Origin: Chlorobium chlorochromatii
GTDB lineage: Bacteria > Bacteroidota > Chlorobiia > Chlorobiales > Chlorobiaceae
Direction: 5' to 3'
Length of the DNA: 64,000 bases
Assembly: GCA_020721255.1 (NCBI GenBank)
Contig: DYND01000006.1
Location: 1-64,000 of the forward strand
Made by a program: the position numbers and the translations under genes
Shown: in pieces, positions 25,408-32,496 of the stretch
Position numbering within the stretch: position 1 is the stretch's first letter
How the letters are laid out: every line of letters starts with the position of its first letter
Notes under the pieces: model-generated
Databases searched by the model: none
Told to the model about the DNA's origin: nothing
The model's input: only the letters and a program-made list of their open reading frames with translations

Positions 25408-28400
25408 ATGGTTGATCGACTTCTTATTCCTCGCAAAGAGATTGTTTTTCTTGTTGATGATCTTGCTGATGTACAACGTCTGTGTGATGGTGCTCTTGCT
25501 TATACTGAAATGTATCTGCTCGATGCGAAAGGCGACGCTTTGCAGCAAATGGCTGCAATACTTGAGGGCAGGGGAGAGCTTGATGCCATTCATCTGTTAA
25601 GTCACGGCGCTTCAGGTGAGTTGCAGCTTGGCACGACGACGCTCAACAGTGGCAATGTGAACGAGTATGCTGGCTTGCTGGCGGAGATTGGTGCAGCGCT
25701 GGCGCCAAATGGCGATTTACTTTTGTATGGTTGCAATGTTGCTGAAGGAGCGAAAGGTGTCGATTTTATCGGCAGAATTGCACAGCTCACGGGTGCAGAT
25801 GTTGCTGCTTCGGTGGATGCGAGTGGCGCGGCAGCGTTGGGTGGCAATTGGGAGCTTGAGTATCAGACGGGTGCAATAGAGAGTGCTTTACCTTTTACGG
25901 AGCAAGCGATTGCTGAGTATGCCGGCGTGATGGATGTGGTCAATAACGCGCCGCCGACGCTGACAGCAAATGGCATATCACCAACGTTCTCTGAGCCTGA
26001 TGGTTTGCATGCTCAGGCAGGATCAGTTAAAGTTTTCCTGACTCCCAATGCAAATGCTAACGATGCAGGTCAAACGATTACTGGATTAACGTTTACGGTC
26101 AGTGGGCTGTTAGACGGTACTGATGAATCGTTTTTTGTTGATGGCACACGGATTGTGCTTGGTGCCAATAGCACAGGCTCAACGGCTACTAACGATATGA
26201 CGTACACGGTGACTGTTTCAGGTACTACAGGAGCCACAGTAGTGCTTTCAAAATCTACTGGGATTGAGGCGGCTGCTATCAATACCTTAATTGAGAATAT
26301 CGCTTATCAGAATACGAGGGTTGATGATCCAACGGCAACGCCATTGGGGGTGTATAGAGTTGTGACCCTCACTGAAATTCGTGATAGTGGTGATGCGTCA
26401 ACGTCGCTGCAGAATATTTTTTCTGAAATTCGTGTTGTTCCTGCAGATGATGCTCCAATATCAACGAGCGAGGTTTTTACAACTTCTGAAGACGTTGACA
26501 AGGTTCTTACGCTTGATGATTTTGGTACCTACAGCGATGCTGCGGATGGTACGTTAGCAACTCCTCTTTCGCTGATAAAAATTACCATGCTGGAAGATAA
26601 TGGCAGTTTAGAGTACAACGATGCTACTGATGGTAATCCAGCCAATTGGGTTACTGTGACGCTTGATCAGGAGATAACCCCCGACGCTATTACTGCAGGG
26701 AAGCTGCGTTTTGTGCCCGATGCCCAAGAAAACGGCTTGCCTTATACCACCATCGGGTTTGCTGTAAAAGATAGCAGTTTGTGGAGCCTCCCTTATACGT
26801 TGACGGTTAATGTTACACCAGTGAACGATCCGCCAGTGTTGACGGGCGACCTTGCAGCACCGATTGATGAAGGTGGCATTTATACCATAACTACTGCTGA
26901 TCTTGGTTACACTGATCTTGATGATACTGCAGCCAACGTATTCTTTACGGCGAGTGATTTGACCAATGGGAAAATTCAGGTGAACGGAGCCGATGCCACC
27001 ACGTTTACGGGTGAACAGCTTGTATCAGGGTTGGTAACATTTGTGCATGATGGCAGCGAAACTCTGGAAGCTTTATTCAACGTCAATGTTGAGGATGGCA
27101 ACGAGGACGATTCAATGCCGATGGCAAGCCTTTTCACGCTGGCGGTAACTCCGAAGAACGATGTCCCAGTGGTGGCTCCTGATACAGCAACCACTCCTGA
27201 AAATACGCCACTTGATGTTGATATGGCGCATGGTGTTTTATCGAACGACAGTGATGTTGACAGCACTACATATAGCGTCAGTGCAATTAACGATGTTGCG
27301 GGCAATGTTGCTTCACCTGTAGTGGGGAGCAATGGCGGTAACTTTACCGTTAATGCGGATGGCAGTTACGCCTTCGATCCCGGTACAGCCTTCGATTATC
27401 TCCTTGCTGGTGCACCGCAAACCACCAGTATCACTTATACGAATACTGACTCTGATGGTGCCAGTGCAAACAGCACGTTAACCATCACCATTACAGGTGT
27501 TAACGACGCTCCCGTAGCTCAAAACGACACCGCTTCGGTTGATGAAAATGCCACGCTCACCGTCGATGCTGCCAACGGCGTTATTCAGAGTGTCGGAGCT
27601 CCATCAGGCGTCGATAACGATGCTGATACGGGCGATACGCTGCAGGTGACGGGTGTCAGCTTTAACGATGTTGCTCAAAGTGCAGATACTTCTTTTGCGA
27701 CACGTTATGGTGCCCTAAAGGTCAATGCGGATGGCAGTTACAGTTATAATCCTGATGGTGCCAATGCTACTGTTAATGCACTTCGCACTGGTGAATCGCT
27801 TACCGAAACATGCACTTACACGGTCAGCGACATAACTGGCGCAACAAGTACCGCGACGTTGACGATTACTATCAACGGTGTTACTGATGGCGCTCCAACC
27901 ATCACTCCTTCCGATACTACAGTGGGCGAAGTTGGTGATGTAACGGTGTATGAAGCTGGTTTAGTAACCGTGACGGATGTAACCGAAACGACAAGTGGCA
28001 ATATCACCGTTACTGTGCCCGATGGTCTGCAATCAGTAACTGCAGGAGGCATTGCCTTTACGGTTGAGCAGTTGGCTGCATTGAGCACGGTTTCACCATC
28101 AGCAGACATTGATACAGGTGAAGGCATTCTCACGTTGATGCAATTTCAGATTACCGATGGCGCAGCTTCAGCGCCGACGGCAGGTGTATTGAGTTACCGT
28201 TACACGCTTAAAGCTCTGCTTGATCATTCTGGTGTCAGCGACATTACTGATACCATTGCGCTGCTGGTTACTGATGCTACTTCAGCCGCAGCCACGGACA
28301 GCAATAATCTTGTCGTGCGCATTGTTGATGATGTTCCAACAGCGGAAGATGATATCCATGCAGTTGCTGAGGGTGCAACGGCAGCAGCAACCGTCACGAG

Positions 28401-31400
28401 CGGCAATGTCTTTTCGGGCAGCACCAATGGCGATGTTGCCGATTATCTTGGCGCGGATAACACGGCAACGCCAGTCAGCGGCATCAGCTTTAACGGTGCA
28501 GCGAAAAGCGTTGGCATGTTGTTTGCCAGCGACTACGGCAGCTTGACCATCAATGCTGATGGCAGCTATACCTACAGCCTCGATAACAGCAACGCAGCCG
28601 TTAATGCACTGAGCAGCACTCAAACGCTTACCGAAGCCTTTACGTACACCATCACCGATGCAGATGGCGACCCTGACTCTGCAACGTTAACCATCACCAT
28701 TACAGGTGCTAACGACGCTCCCGTAGCTCAAAACGACACCGCTTCGGTTGATGAAAATGCCACGCTTACCGTCGATGCTGCCAACGGCGTTATTCAGAGC
28801 GTTGGAGCTCCATCAGGCGTCGATAACGATGCTGATACGGGCGATACGCTGCACGTGACGGGTGTCATCACCGGAACAGCGCCGGATGTTGCGGCAGTGG
28901 GCACATCAAATATTGCAACATTGCTCACTGGCACGTATGGTCATCTCACCATGGCGGCAGATGGCAGCTACACCTATGTTGCTGATACAGCTCAAGCAGA
29001 AGCTTTACTTGAAGGAGTAACAGCAATTGATACATTCAGTTACGCCGTCAGCGACGGCAATGGTGGTACATCATTTGCAACGTTGAACTTGACCGTGACT
29101 GGCGTTAAAGATGTTGCTTTAGCCATCAACGATGTTACCGTGCGTGAGAGCGATGGAACAGCAACATTCACCGTGACCCGCACGGGCGATATGGATGTAA
29201 GCGCATCCGTCAATTACGCCATCAGCGATGGTTCCGCTAAAGTTGCTGACAGCGATTATACTGCCTCACAAACAACAGGTACGCTTACGTTTGCAGCCGG
29301 TGATAGCAGTAAAACGGTGACCGTTGCCATCACTGACGACCATACTTTTGAGCAGCCTGAAACCTTTACCGTCACTCTTTCCAATCCCGATACTGGCACG
29401 GTGATTACGGATGCTGATGCTGTTGGTACCATTACGGATGATGATTTGCTGGAGGTAACCGGTAACGATAAGGTCTCCGAAGGAAGTGCTGCAATTTTTA
29501 CGGTACAGCTCGGACAGTCAAGTGCATCCTTAACAGATATAGCTTTAACGCTTGGCACGATTGGTGATAAAGCCACAGTTACGGACGACTACAGTACCAC
29601 CATGTCGGCGTATTACTACGCTGGTGCTACCAAAACAGACCTTGTTATCACGAATGGTCATCTCCCTCTGCCGGAAAATGTGACTGACTTTTTTGTCAGC
29701 GTACCAACGGTTGATGATAATGTTGGTGGTAACCCCGGTCCGTATGAAGGTGCCGAACATTTCACACTTACTGCAGCAACCATCGATGGTCAAAATGATA
29801 GTGATACCGCAACAATTCTTGATGATGGTACTGGTGGTTATGATCTTCAGGGGAATATTGATCCTGCCGTTACACCGGATGATGATTCTCGTTTAGTGAT
29901 CAACAACGTCGTTGTCAATGAGGGTTCCCCCTACATCGTCTTCCGTGTTGAAGCATCGAGCAATCTCTCGTTTACACTCACCCTTGCCGATGATGCCACG
30001 AATCATCAGGGAAGTGAGACCTATGCTCTGGCGACATTCGATAACACGTTAGTTACTGATGAAGCAGATAAGGATTATGGCCATAAGGTAGATGCGTCAG
30101 GCAATCTTCTCGATGAGCCACTTATCCAAGTATATAACGGTTCAACATGGGAAGATTACGACTCGACCAATTCAGTCTCTGTGCCAGATGGTGGCAGTGT
30201 GCTGCTGGTTCGTGTGCCGATACATAATGATCTTCCTTCCATCTATGAAAGGGCACACGCCTTTACGCTTATCGCAACTCGATCTGATAATCGTACCTCT
30301 ACAGGTCTTGGTATTATTGTTGATGATGGCACTGGCGCCATTTTCAACGACAGTGGTGCGGAAGTAAACAACGCGGTAAAGGATGATGATCTTGATAAAG
30401 ATGGCATTAATCCCGAGGCTGAAACGAGGCTTGCCAATCAAGCTACTGGTAGTAGTAGTGGCGACTTAAATGGTGATGGAGTTCAGGATGATACTCAGAA
30501 CGCCCTTGCTACGCTTGCATGGCGGAGTGCCGATGACTTTGCGGCTGGTAAAAATGGCACTCCGATCGACAGTACGGCAATTATCTCCATTGGCGTTGTG
30601 GACTCCGTAGCCGCCACCGATAGTCAAATATCAACGGTTGCGCAGTTGCTTTCTATTGAGGTTAAAAAGTATGCGGAGATTGACCTGACAACGACCGTTG
30701 TAGCAAATACTGACGGTACAACAACGGTTACTCTCGCTAATGGTACTGAGGTAACAACGCCGTGGGAACCAATCCGTTTCGGTATTGAAGTGCGGGATGA
30801 TCAAGCAGGCTCATCACTTGCCGATGTTTATCCCGAAGACCCGAATGATCCTAACTATGTAGCCGGTTTAGGGCGTACTGGTACGCAGGTGCGTGTGCTG
30901 ATTGATGTGCGTGCTTCAGGTCTTACCAAAGATGATGCCAATGCTTACATCAAGTACGTCTCTGCTGATGCAATTACTCAAGCACACGTTCTCCACGATC
31001 TTGATGGTCACGCCATTACCGACGCTGGCTGGTACGACTTTACGCAACGCACGCCTGGCGGTGATGGTGCATTATTACATTTTGATACCAACAATAAGCT
31101 TGTTGAAATTGAGCTGATTATCACTGATAACGCTTTTGGTGATAATGATTTGCGCGATAATCATATTTTCGATCCCGGCACTCTGGCAATCGTCGGAGCC
31201 AATCCCGTTTATCGTGTTGATCGCCCATCGGCTGACCATGAATTGTCGCTCAGCAAAACCACACCAGATATTGAATTTTACGGTGTACCTGCAACCCATC
31301 CCGAGGCTGTTGCCTTGAAAGCGTGGTATAACCCGATTACGGACGACTACTTCTACGCTCCCGATGGCACTCCAGCACCCTATAGCTGTTATGTTGAACG

Positions 31401-31707
31401 TCCTGATATTGATTTAGGATATGTGTTGCGTCAAGATTCTTCTACCACTGGAGTGTTTGATGTACACTTGTACCTCAACAGCGCCGGTATTACCCAGATT
31501 ATGGGCGAATCGGCCGCAGCGGCGCTGCACTTGGAAGCGCAAGGCTATGTGGATAAAGGTGTGCTTTTTGAATCGGCTCAGGCGATTACTCCCACCAGCG
31601 CGCTTGGTGCCGACCCTTATGCGGGAGGCAGTTCATCCGACATTGGTACAGGCGAGGTGCTTGGTGGCATTGCGGCGCTTGGTCTTCTTGCATGGCTGGC
31701 GTGGTAA
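25408..31707 (+). CDS. Giant DUF4347 / cadherin-VCBS / Calx-beta surface protein
   Basis: The 2099-residue protein has no Sec signal peptide. Residues about 9-175 form a DUF4347 domain, with His66 in LLSHGASG and Cys109 in LLYGCNVAEG. A run of beta-sandwich modules follows: cadherin-like at about 179-350, 353-470 and 472-583, then VCBS/cadherin-like at about 584-1230 (units starting NDAPVAQND or similar, each with a DGSYxY core). A Calx-beta domain occupies about 1233-1346, with two Calx-beta-like modules to about 1650. Two acidic loops follow, DLDKDGINPEAE (about 1661) and DLNGDGVQDD (about 1686), likely calcium sites. The last 20 residues are hydrophobic. It is probably a secreted or surface adhesin, perhaps type I exported; the function of DUF4347 is unknown. 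Confidence 0.88.
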   Translation: MVDRLLIPRKEIVFLVDDLADVQRLCDGALAYTEMYLLDAKGDALQQMAAILEGRGELDAIHLLSHGASGELQLGTTTLNSGNVNEYAGLLAEIGAALAPNGDLLLYGCNVAEGAKGVDFIGRIAQLTGADVAASVDASGAAALGGNWELEYQTGAIESALPFTEQAIAEYAGVMDVVNNAPPTLTANGISPTFSEPDGLHAQAGSVKVFLTPNANANDAGQTITGLTFTVSGLLDGTDESFFVDGTRIVLGANSTGSTATNDMTYTVTVSGTTGATVVLSKSTGIEAAAINTLIENIAYQNTRVDDPTATPLGVYRVVTLTEIRDSGDASTSLQNIFSEIRVVPADDAPISTSEVFTTSEDVDKVLTLDDFGTYSDAADGTLATPLSLIKITMLEDNGSLEYNDATDGNPANWVTVTLDQEITPDAITAGKLRFVPDAQENGLPYTTIGFAVKDSSLWSLPYTLTVNVTPVNDPPVLTGDLAAPIDEGGIYTITTADLGYTDLDDTAANVFFTASDLTNGKIQVNGADATTFTGEQLVSGLVTFVHDGSETLEALFNVNVEDGNEDDSMPMASLFTLAVTPKNDVPVVAPDTATTPENTPLDVDMAHGVLSNDSDVDSTTYSVSAINDVAGNVASPVVGSNGGNFTVNADGSYAFDPGTAFDYLLAGAPQTTSITYTNTDSDGASANSTLTITITGVNDAPVAQNDTASVDENATLTVDAANGVIQSVGAPSGVDNDADTGDTLQVTGVSFNDVAQSADTSFATRYGALKVNADGSYSYNPDGANATVNALRTGESLTETCTYTVSDITGATSTATLTITINGVTDGAPTITPSDTTVGEVGDVTVYEAGLVTVTDVTETTSGNITVTVPDGLQSVTAGGIAFTVEQLAALSTVSPSADIDTGEGILTLMQFQITDGAASAPTAGVLSYRYTLKALLDHSGVSDITDTIALLVTDATSAAATDSNNLVVRIVDDVPTAEDDIHAVAEGATAAATVTSGNVFSGSTNGDVADYLGADNTATPVSGISFNGAAKSVGMLFASDYGSLTINADGSYTYSLDNSNAAVNALSSTQTLTEAFTYTITDADGDPDSATLTITITGANDAPVAQNDTASVDENATLTVDAANGVIQSVGAPSGVDNDADTGDTLHVTGVITGTAPDVAAVGTSNIATLLTGTYGHLTMAADGSYTYVADTAQAEALLEGVTAIDTFSYAVSDGNGGTSFATLNLTVTGVKDVALAINDVTVRESDGTATFTVTRTGDMDVSASVNYAISDGSAKVADSDYTASQTTGTLTFAAGDSSKTVTVAITDDHTFEQPETFTVTLSNPDTGTVITDADAVGTITDDDLLEVTGNDKVSEGSAAIFTVQLGQSSASLTDIALTLGTIGDKATVTDDYSTTMSAYYYAGATKTDLVITNGHLPLPENVTDFFVSVPTVDDNVGGNPGPYEGAEHFTLTAATIDGQNDSDTATILDDGTGGYDLQGNIDPAVTPDDDSRLVINNVVVNEGSPYIVFRVEASSNLSFTLTLADDATNHQGSETYALATFDNTLVTDEADKDYGHKVDASGNLLDEPLIQVYNGSTWEDYDSTNSVSVPDGGSVLLVRVPIHNDLPSIYERAHAFTLIATRSDNRTSTGLGIIVDDGTGAIFNDSGAEVNNAVKDDDLDKDGINPEAETRLANQATGSSSGDLNGDGVQDDTQNALATLAWRSADDFAAGKNGTPIDSTAIISIGVVDSVAATDSQISTVAQLLSIEVKKYAEIDLTTTVVANTDGTTTVTLANGTEVTTPWEPIRFGIEVRDDQAGSSLADVYPEDPNDPNYVAGLGRTGTQVRVLIDVRASGLTKDDANAYIKYVSADAITQAHVLHDLDGHAITDAGWYDFTQRTPGGDGALLHFDTNNKLVEIELIITDNAFGDNDLRDNHIFDPGTLAIVGANPVYRVDRPSADHELSLSKTTPDIEFYGVPATHPEAVALKAWYNPITDDYFYAPDGTPAPYSCYVERPDIDLGYVLRQDSSTTGVFDVHLYLNSAGITQIMGESAAAALHLEAQGYVDKGVLFESAQAITPTSALGADPYAGGSSSDIGTGEVLGGIAALGLLAWLAW
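27481..27658 (+). repeat. Intragenic 178-bp repeat, copy 1
   Basis: This segment encodes residues about 692-751 of the giant protein (starting TITITGVNDAPVAQND). It is repeated at 28690-28867 with five mismatches in 178 bases, 1209 bases apart and in frame. Silent sites are nearly all conserved, so the copies are recent or kept alike by gene conversion. Confidence 0.9.
28690..28867 (+). repeat. Intragenic 178-bp repeat, copy 2
   Basis: This second copy encodes residues about 1095-1154 (starting TITITGANDAPVAQND). It differs from 27481-27658 at five positions. The sequences diverge sharply after the shared gacgggtgtc, so the boundary lies inside the VCBS module and does not coincide with a domain end. 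Confidence 0.9.
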
Positions 31708-31774
31708 GGTAAAATCTGTTTTTCAAGTGTGTTACTCTTTATCAATCAATGCATTATCAACCATCACTGTTATT

Positions 31775-32496
31775 ATGAACATTATTAAAAAGCTTGGAAA
31801 GAAAGGGGTGCTTGCAGCGGTTGCAGCATCCGCAATGTTTTGCGTGGCACCACAGGCAGAAGCCGCGCAGACGTGGCGGCAAAGCTGGTATGCTACAGGT
31901 GCAGGCATGGGCATTGTGAATACCGACGATGGTTCTCCAACGATTGATTTTCAGACTCTTGGTGTACCAGCACACCACAGCTATCTTCTTTTGATTACAG
32001 CGGTACATTTGCTGGCAGCGTAGCGGTTGGGCATGAAGGCGCGTTTTGCAGAAAAAAGTGTGGACCACAAAATGCACGCATTGAGTTAGAGATGGTTTCA
32101 GGTAGTACAGACCGAGAATACGCGGATGTTGGTATTGTCCATAAAGGGCTTAATGACAGCGTGAAATACCGTGCCATTTTTCTTAACGGAATGCTTGGGG
32201 TGTACGATACTGAAAAGATGCGCGTTTGGGCAGGTGCTGGTATCGGTTATGGACAGGTAAAGGTCCCTTATGTTTACTGTAATCCATGTGATTGTTTGCA
32301 AGCAGTAACGCATGAAGCTATTGCCTATCGCGCAAAAGTGCAGGTTGAGCGTGAAATTTCAAAAACCGGCGCTGTATTTGCTGAAGTTGGGTACATGAAG
32401 TTTGATGCAGGCGAAACCAGCAATATTCTTCCTAAGGTTGATTATGGTCAATTAAATCTTGTTGATCTTGCTCTTGGGTTGCGCTTTTACCTCTAA
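31775..32496 (+). pseudogene. Frameshifted outer-membrane beta-barrel protein gene
   Basis: The frame from 31775 encodes a signal peptide (MNIIKKLGKKGVLAAVAASA, AEAA cleavage site) and the start of a mature protein (TWRQSWYATGAGMGIVNTDDG). It then hits a stop at 32021-32023. The remaining barrel lies in another frame: DYSGTFAGSVAVGHEGAFC, continuing past 32092 to RAKVQVEREISKTGAVFAEVGY and ending LRFYL. Adding one T to the tttt run near 31989-31992 joins both into about 240 residues (SYLLFDYSGTF). This is either a real loss-of-function frameshift, phase variation or a sequence error. It lies 67 bases downstream of the giant protein gene. Confidence 0.75.

Follow-up and report, generated by a model that had tools for sequence, protein, structure and literature searches.

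Described relatives of the DUF4347 head

In caspases and other clan CD peptidases, the catalytic His follows strand 3 and the catalytic Cys follows strand 4. Where strand 1 ends, caspases and metacaspases have one of their specificity-pocket residues, and some legumain-type enzymes of clan CD ligate. In LapA-type adhesins, the N-terminal retention module is cut by LapG, a separate papain-like protease. The cysteine protease domains (CPDs) of family C80 possess a His/Cys dyad and a Trp in the G1/G2 hairpin after the sheet, and they autoprocess after a Leu with small neighbours (PMC2900308). Homology to the MARTX CPD has been described for a family of peptidases named CPDadh (Pei, Lupardus, Garcia, Grishin 2009, Protein Sci 18:856, doi 10.1002/pro.78; as cited in PMC2900308). 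Caspase-like domains that occur in large surface proteins of bacteria have also been named as possible autoprocessing domains (PMC3482391). Here, these systems are compared with the DUF4347 head of a giant adhesin encoded in 64,000 nucleotides of Chlorobium chlorochromatii (contig DYND01000006.1, positions 1 to 64,000; this whole stretch is the window). The computed fold, dyad position and dyad invariance of this head, which is about 175 residues long, point to a CPD-like cysteine peptidase of clan CD with His66 and Cys109 as its dyad. On balance, we consider it probable that the head is such a peptidase and that it would cut its own chain near the domain boundary, or else a partner protein.

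In the account of Pei et al., CPDadh is reportedly the N-terminal domain of putative cell-cell interaction proteins. The head of the window adhesin has a similar place in a putative surface or cell-cell interaction protein and, judged by this N-terminal position, probably belongs to the published CPDadh family. The nearest solved relative is Tce1 (PA0256), a cargo of the H3 type VI secretion system (H3-T6SS) of Pseudomonas aeruginosa (PDB 9QPE). A description from 2026 regards Tce1 as a putative cysteine protease and, after superposing it on a CPD, proposes His186/Cys240 as its dyad (PMC13323088). 9QPE is annotated as a DUF4347 domain-containing protein. Thus, the clan CD reading of a DUF4347 head is very probably not new, and the statement of the original prediction that DUF4347 has no assigned function is outdated by the report on Tce1 (PMC13323088) and by the citation of CPDadh (PMC2900308). 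DUF4347 heads are common, yet Pfam still lists them as of unknown function.

This analysis adds that an acid is almost fixed where strand 1 ends, that the domain closes with [YFW]xxxL and then A, P or G, a disputable candidate cut site that is off consensus in the window copy, that many members lack space for a signal peptide and that a conserved downstream gene for an outer-membrane barrel is frameshifted in the window. The interest rests in the predicted activity of the head more than in novelty. If the head is active, many giant adhesins would carry their own protease, which bears on how biofilm- and consortium-forming bacteria release or mature surface proteins.

Predicted fold and predicted His66/Cys109 dyad

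The adhesin gene and the residues discussed below lie at the following positions of the window.

25408..31707, + strand: adhesin open reading frame (ORF), 2099 amino acids, from ORF calling and a Pfam match
25441..25929, + strand: DUF4347 domain (PF14252), residues 12-174, with a predicted clan CD, CPD-like cysteine peptidase fold
25453..25458, + strand: Val16-Asp17 at the end of strand 1
25603..25605, + strand: His66, predicted catalytic His after strand 3, codon CAC
25732..25734, + strand: Cys109, predicted catalytic nucleophile after strand 4, codon TGC
25849..25851, + strand: Trp148 of the conserved GG[DN]WxLE hairpin
25918..25935, + strand: domain end Y171-A-G-V-M175-D176, candidate self-cleavage site, off consensus in the window copy

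By its profile match, the head is a member of DUF4347 (PF14252, E 7.7e-54, 182.3 bits against a curated cut-off of 24.6, profile positions 1-163 of 164). It is followed by cadherin-like, VCBS and immunoglobulin (Ig)-like repeats (Big_9/VCBS-type), one Calx-beta domain, a unique C-terminal region and a short hydrophobic tail. His66 is within AIHLLSHGASG (core LLSHG) and Cys109 within DLLLYGCNVAEG (core LYGCN). The codons of both residues and the 43 residues between them agree with the positions and the caspase-like spacing claimed for the pair by the original prediction.

The AlphaFold2 model was built from an alignment of 85 rows with a mean column identity of 36% (A1) and had a predicted local distance difference test (pLDDT) score of 94.8 and a predicted template modelling (pTM) score of 0.90. 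Its strands span residues 11-16, 33-38, 58-64, 98-107 and 131-134, and thus His66 is just past strand 3 and Cys109 just past strand 4. When the model was compared with the PDB by Foldseek, the best match was Tce1 (9qpe_G, E 2e-5, TM-score 0.56), followed by legumain (E 7e-4) and caspase-3 (E 9e-4), and caspases and legumain dominated the list. In the profile alignment, His66 and Cys109 corresponded to 9QPE chain residues 77 and 131, which are therefore His186 and Cys240, provided that the chain starts at 110. Similar to the window head, Tce1 possesses a DUF4347 domain and the aligned, proposed dyad. Different from it, however, Tce1 is a T6SS effector of 310 amino acids without an adhesin stalk, its DUF4347 domain is C-terminal and the identity is 17%. 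A search of solved structures with the single sequence gave no match. The matches of the profile search to de novo TIM barrels were rejected as artefacts of a short helix that is repeated in these designs.

Conservation of the dyad was counted in two sets of homologues. Among 115 homologous domains, whose loci were partly picked by a pattern that includes the Cys motif, Cys109 was kept in 115/115 and His66 in 114/115. Because of that pattern, the count was repeated with 98 distinct domains drawn from whole genomes by the Pfam profile, in which Cys109 was found in 96/96 and His66 in 95/96, the lone exception being an H-to-Y replacement (L021). The columns of H66 and C109 were also the sole invariant ones of the 85-row alignment. 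Judged by these counts, the conservation of the pair exceeds chance. A clan CD-like arrangement of the head, as had been proposed from motif shape, is well supported by the strand order of the predicted model and its Foldseek matches, by the near-invariance of the pair and by its alignment with the proposed dyad of Tce1.

Of the proposed resemblance to caspases and CHAT domains, that to CHAT was the weaker. Peptidase_C80 (PF11713) gave weak matches in 24/85 homologues at E<=1 (best 2.4e-4) and none in the window protein, while CHAT (PF12770) matched 3/85 homologues (best 0.013) and also not the window protein, which is thus not placed among CHAT proteins. From profile and fold comparisons, the nearest kin of the head are MARTX-type CPDs or C80-like peptidases and legumain/caspases. 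With the CPDs of MARTX and clostridial toxins, DUF4347 shares the His/Cys dyad and a Trp hairpin, in which Trp148 may correspond to the conserved Trp of the G1/G2 hairpin of CPDs; the Leu near the domain end, often with a small residue after it, may be a further likeness. Different from these host-injected toxins, however, the head is part of a bacterial extracellular adhesin, and no Lys or Arg was among the columns conserved at >60% in the 115 domains, which thus lack a conserved basic pocket of the type that binds inositol hexakisphosphate (InsP6). InsP6-type activation is therefore unlikely. Caspases, legumain and CHAT share with the head the strand order of clan CD and the places of His and Cys behind strands 3 and 4, but they are only about 10% identical to it, their TM-scores are below 0.5 and the head is without a p10-like partner chain. 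Given the TM-scores, the broad fold is well supported and a close kinship to caspase or legumain is not.

Possible roles of the head and its C-terminal boundary

The conserved dyad suggests that the head is an active peptidase. In the proposed scenario, the adhesin would be exported without the help of an N-terminal Sec signal, and the head would then cut the chain close to where the domain ends, or would cut a partner protein. Such a cut would part the head from the cadherin-like stalk and lead to maturation, release or re-anchoring of the adhesin. Cutting of itself or of a partner is suggested by analogy with the autoprocessing of MARTX-type CPDs, and self-cutting would be the simplest task for a cysteine peptidase that heads such an adhesin. 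Similar to LapA-type adhesins, the window adhesin is a giant repeat protein whose release may hinge on cutting near its N-terminus. Different from LapA, whose protease is a separate papain-like protein, the predicted peptidase is here part of the adhesin, in which no LapA retention family was matched.

At position 16, 149/165 homologues had D or E, and in 6, including the window copy, the acid was at position 17 instead. By analogy with caspases and metacaspases, this acid may be a residue of the specificity pocket. The domain end of the homologues is [YFW]xxxL followed by A, P or G. Leu175 was found in 144/156 homologues, with V, L, T or I before it and A (65), P (23), G (20) or S (10) after it. 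Toxin CPDs cut after a Leu that has small residues around it (PMC2900308), which makes this boundary a candidate cut site. It is a disputable one, because Leu175 may merely pack: Pro, which would hinder cutting, is at its P1' position in 23/156 homologues whose His and Cys are intact, and Phe replaces the Leu in 11/156. In most of the family, residue 16 is Asp and Leu175 is followed by Ala, Pro or Gly; the window copy has Val16 and Met175-Asp176 instead, with the only Met at position 175 among the 156. Its Val16-Asp17 and Met175-Asp176 may reflect an altered specificity or a loss of self-cutting at the boundary. It is doubtful that DUF4347 heads across phyla are self-excising peptidases that would cut at Leu175 after export and serve as a built-in switch for adhesin release, with a changed specificity or a loss of self-cutting in copies such as that of the window.

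The fold and the dyad also fit an active clan CD peptidase that would spare its own chain and cut other proteins of the surface or envelope in trans. Such a role would be in line with the proposal that Tce1 and Tce2 act on target-cell proteins (PMC13323088), with the lack of a strictly conserved cut site and with the Pro after Leu175, which would block cutting. Nearly all members seen, however, are fused to a giant stalk, which favours a role linked to it, and no partner was found, so that we consider action in trans unlikely. The head could also retain the fold as a binding or folding module in which the His/Cys pair is structural. The window copy, without the consensus acid at 16 and the Leu at 175, would suit such a module, and superfamily members that have lost catalysis are known from other settings (PMC3482391). 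Yet no residues of the family vary less than His and Cys, in contrast to their variable surroundings, which is hard to explain without catalysis and renders this explanation distinctly improbable. Legumain is among the nearest folds and the adhesin must somehow be kept on the cell, both of which would suit a clan CD transpeptidase, in which the Cys would attack a peptide bond and the adhesin would be transferred to an acceptor amine and thereby anchored covalently. Neither an acceptor nor a conserved donor motif was found, however, and nothing specific beyond the fold speaks for transpeptidation, which we regard as very improbable. Finally, the Rossmann-like non-peptidases among the fold matches (a dehydrogenase and flavodoxin) could mean that the motifs match by chance on an unrelated alpha/beta domain. 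With a DUF4347 protein as the best match, its proposed dyad aligned residue for residue, and caspases and legumain dominating the list, chance is already largely refuted and can hardly be the explanation.

Several observations also weigh against the reading of the head as a CPD-like peptidase. In addition to the generic Rossmann-like matches, the low TM-scores to caspase and legumain, the weak Peptidase_C80 matches and the absence of conserved basic residues, the window copy has Val in place of the consensus Asp at position 16 and Met-Asp in place of Leu-Ala at 175-176. Moreover, Tce1 was without toxicity in yeast and its activity is proposed only (PMC13323088), and in the literature examined, demonstrated activity was found for no DUF4347 protein, adhesin-borne ones included.

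Export, the downstream gene and distribution

No more than 16 residues could precede the Met of the window protein, which has no signal peptide. In 75/167 homologues, 45 residues or fewer separate the in-frame stop from the DUF4347 domain, and a hydrophobic 12-mer upstream of the domain was found in just 15/167. Given the short leaders and the rarity of such 12-mers, Sec export is disfavoured. The adhesins are likely exported without an N-terminal Sec signal, for which type I secretion would be the obvious candidate. A link to type I secretion was sought and could not be shown. At 80 loci with their flanks, just four generic ATP-binding cassette (ABC) matches were nearby. Among related genomes of the window's family, LssB-like transporters scoring >500 bits, a threshold set afterwards, were found in 7/18 DUF4347-positive vs 2/26 negative genomes (one-sided hypergeometric probability about 0.02, for related genomes and a post hoc threshold). 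On contig C14 of the window's genome, two ABC exporter genes in tandem precede a TolC-like gene, and the same contig contains a second DUF4347 copy (L002). This copy is one of three further DUF4347 matches (L002, L003, L004) in the same incomplete genome.

The C-terminus of the adhesin (31640-31707, + strand) contains a short hydrophobic tail, GGIAALGLLAWLAW, which is without basic residues and is common to four relatives. The gene next to it is the following.

31769..32490, + strand: downstream outer-membrane beta-barrel-like gene, split over two reading frames near 31990

In the four relatives that share the C-terminal region (L192, L193, L194, L195), an intact homologue of this small barrel-like gene directly follows the adhesin gene. 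Two of these adhesins show a DUF4347 head and the other two are cut by contig ends. The split of the window's barrel gene is a pseudogene or an assembly error.

DUF4347 scored above the profile cut-off in 84/299 sampled genomes of the phylum of genome G199 and in 19/198 of the window's own phylum. The genome of Lyngbya aestuarii has an unusual expansion with 17 DUF4347 matches (L113, L119-L134). One protein (L018/L031) possesses two tandem DUF4347 domains, of which the first is more diverged. Proteins with DUF4347 and Ig-like domains were also found on plasmids of Enterobacterales (Escherichia, Citrobacter, Hafnia and Kosakonia). The host genome encodes the Fenna-Matthews-Olson (FMO) bacteriochlorophyll protein, which points to a green sulfur bacterium, and the genes that flank the window adhesin are housekeeping genes (thyX, pdxA, a methyltransferase gene, coaE and ileS).
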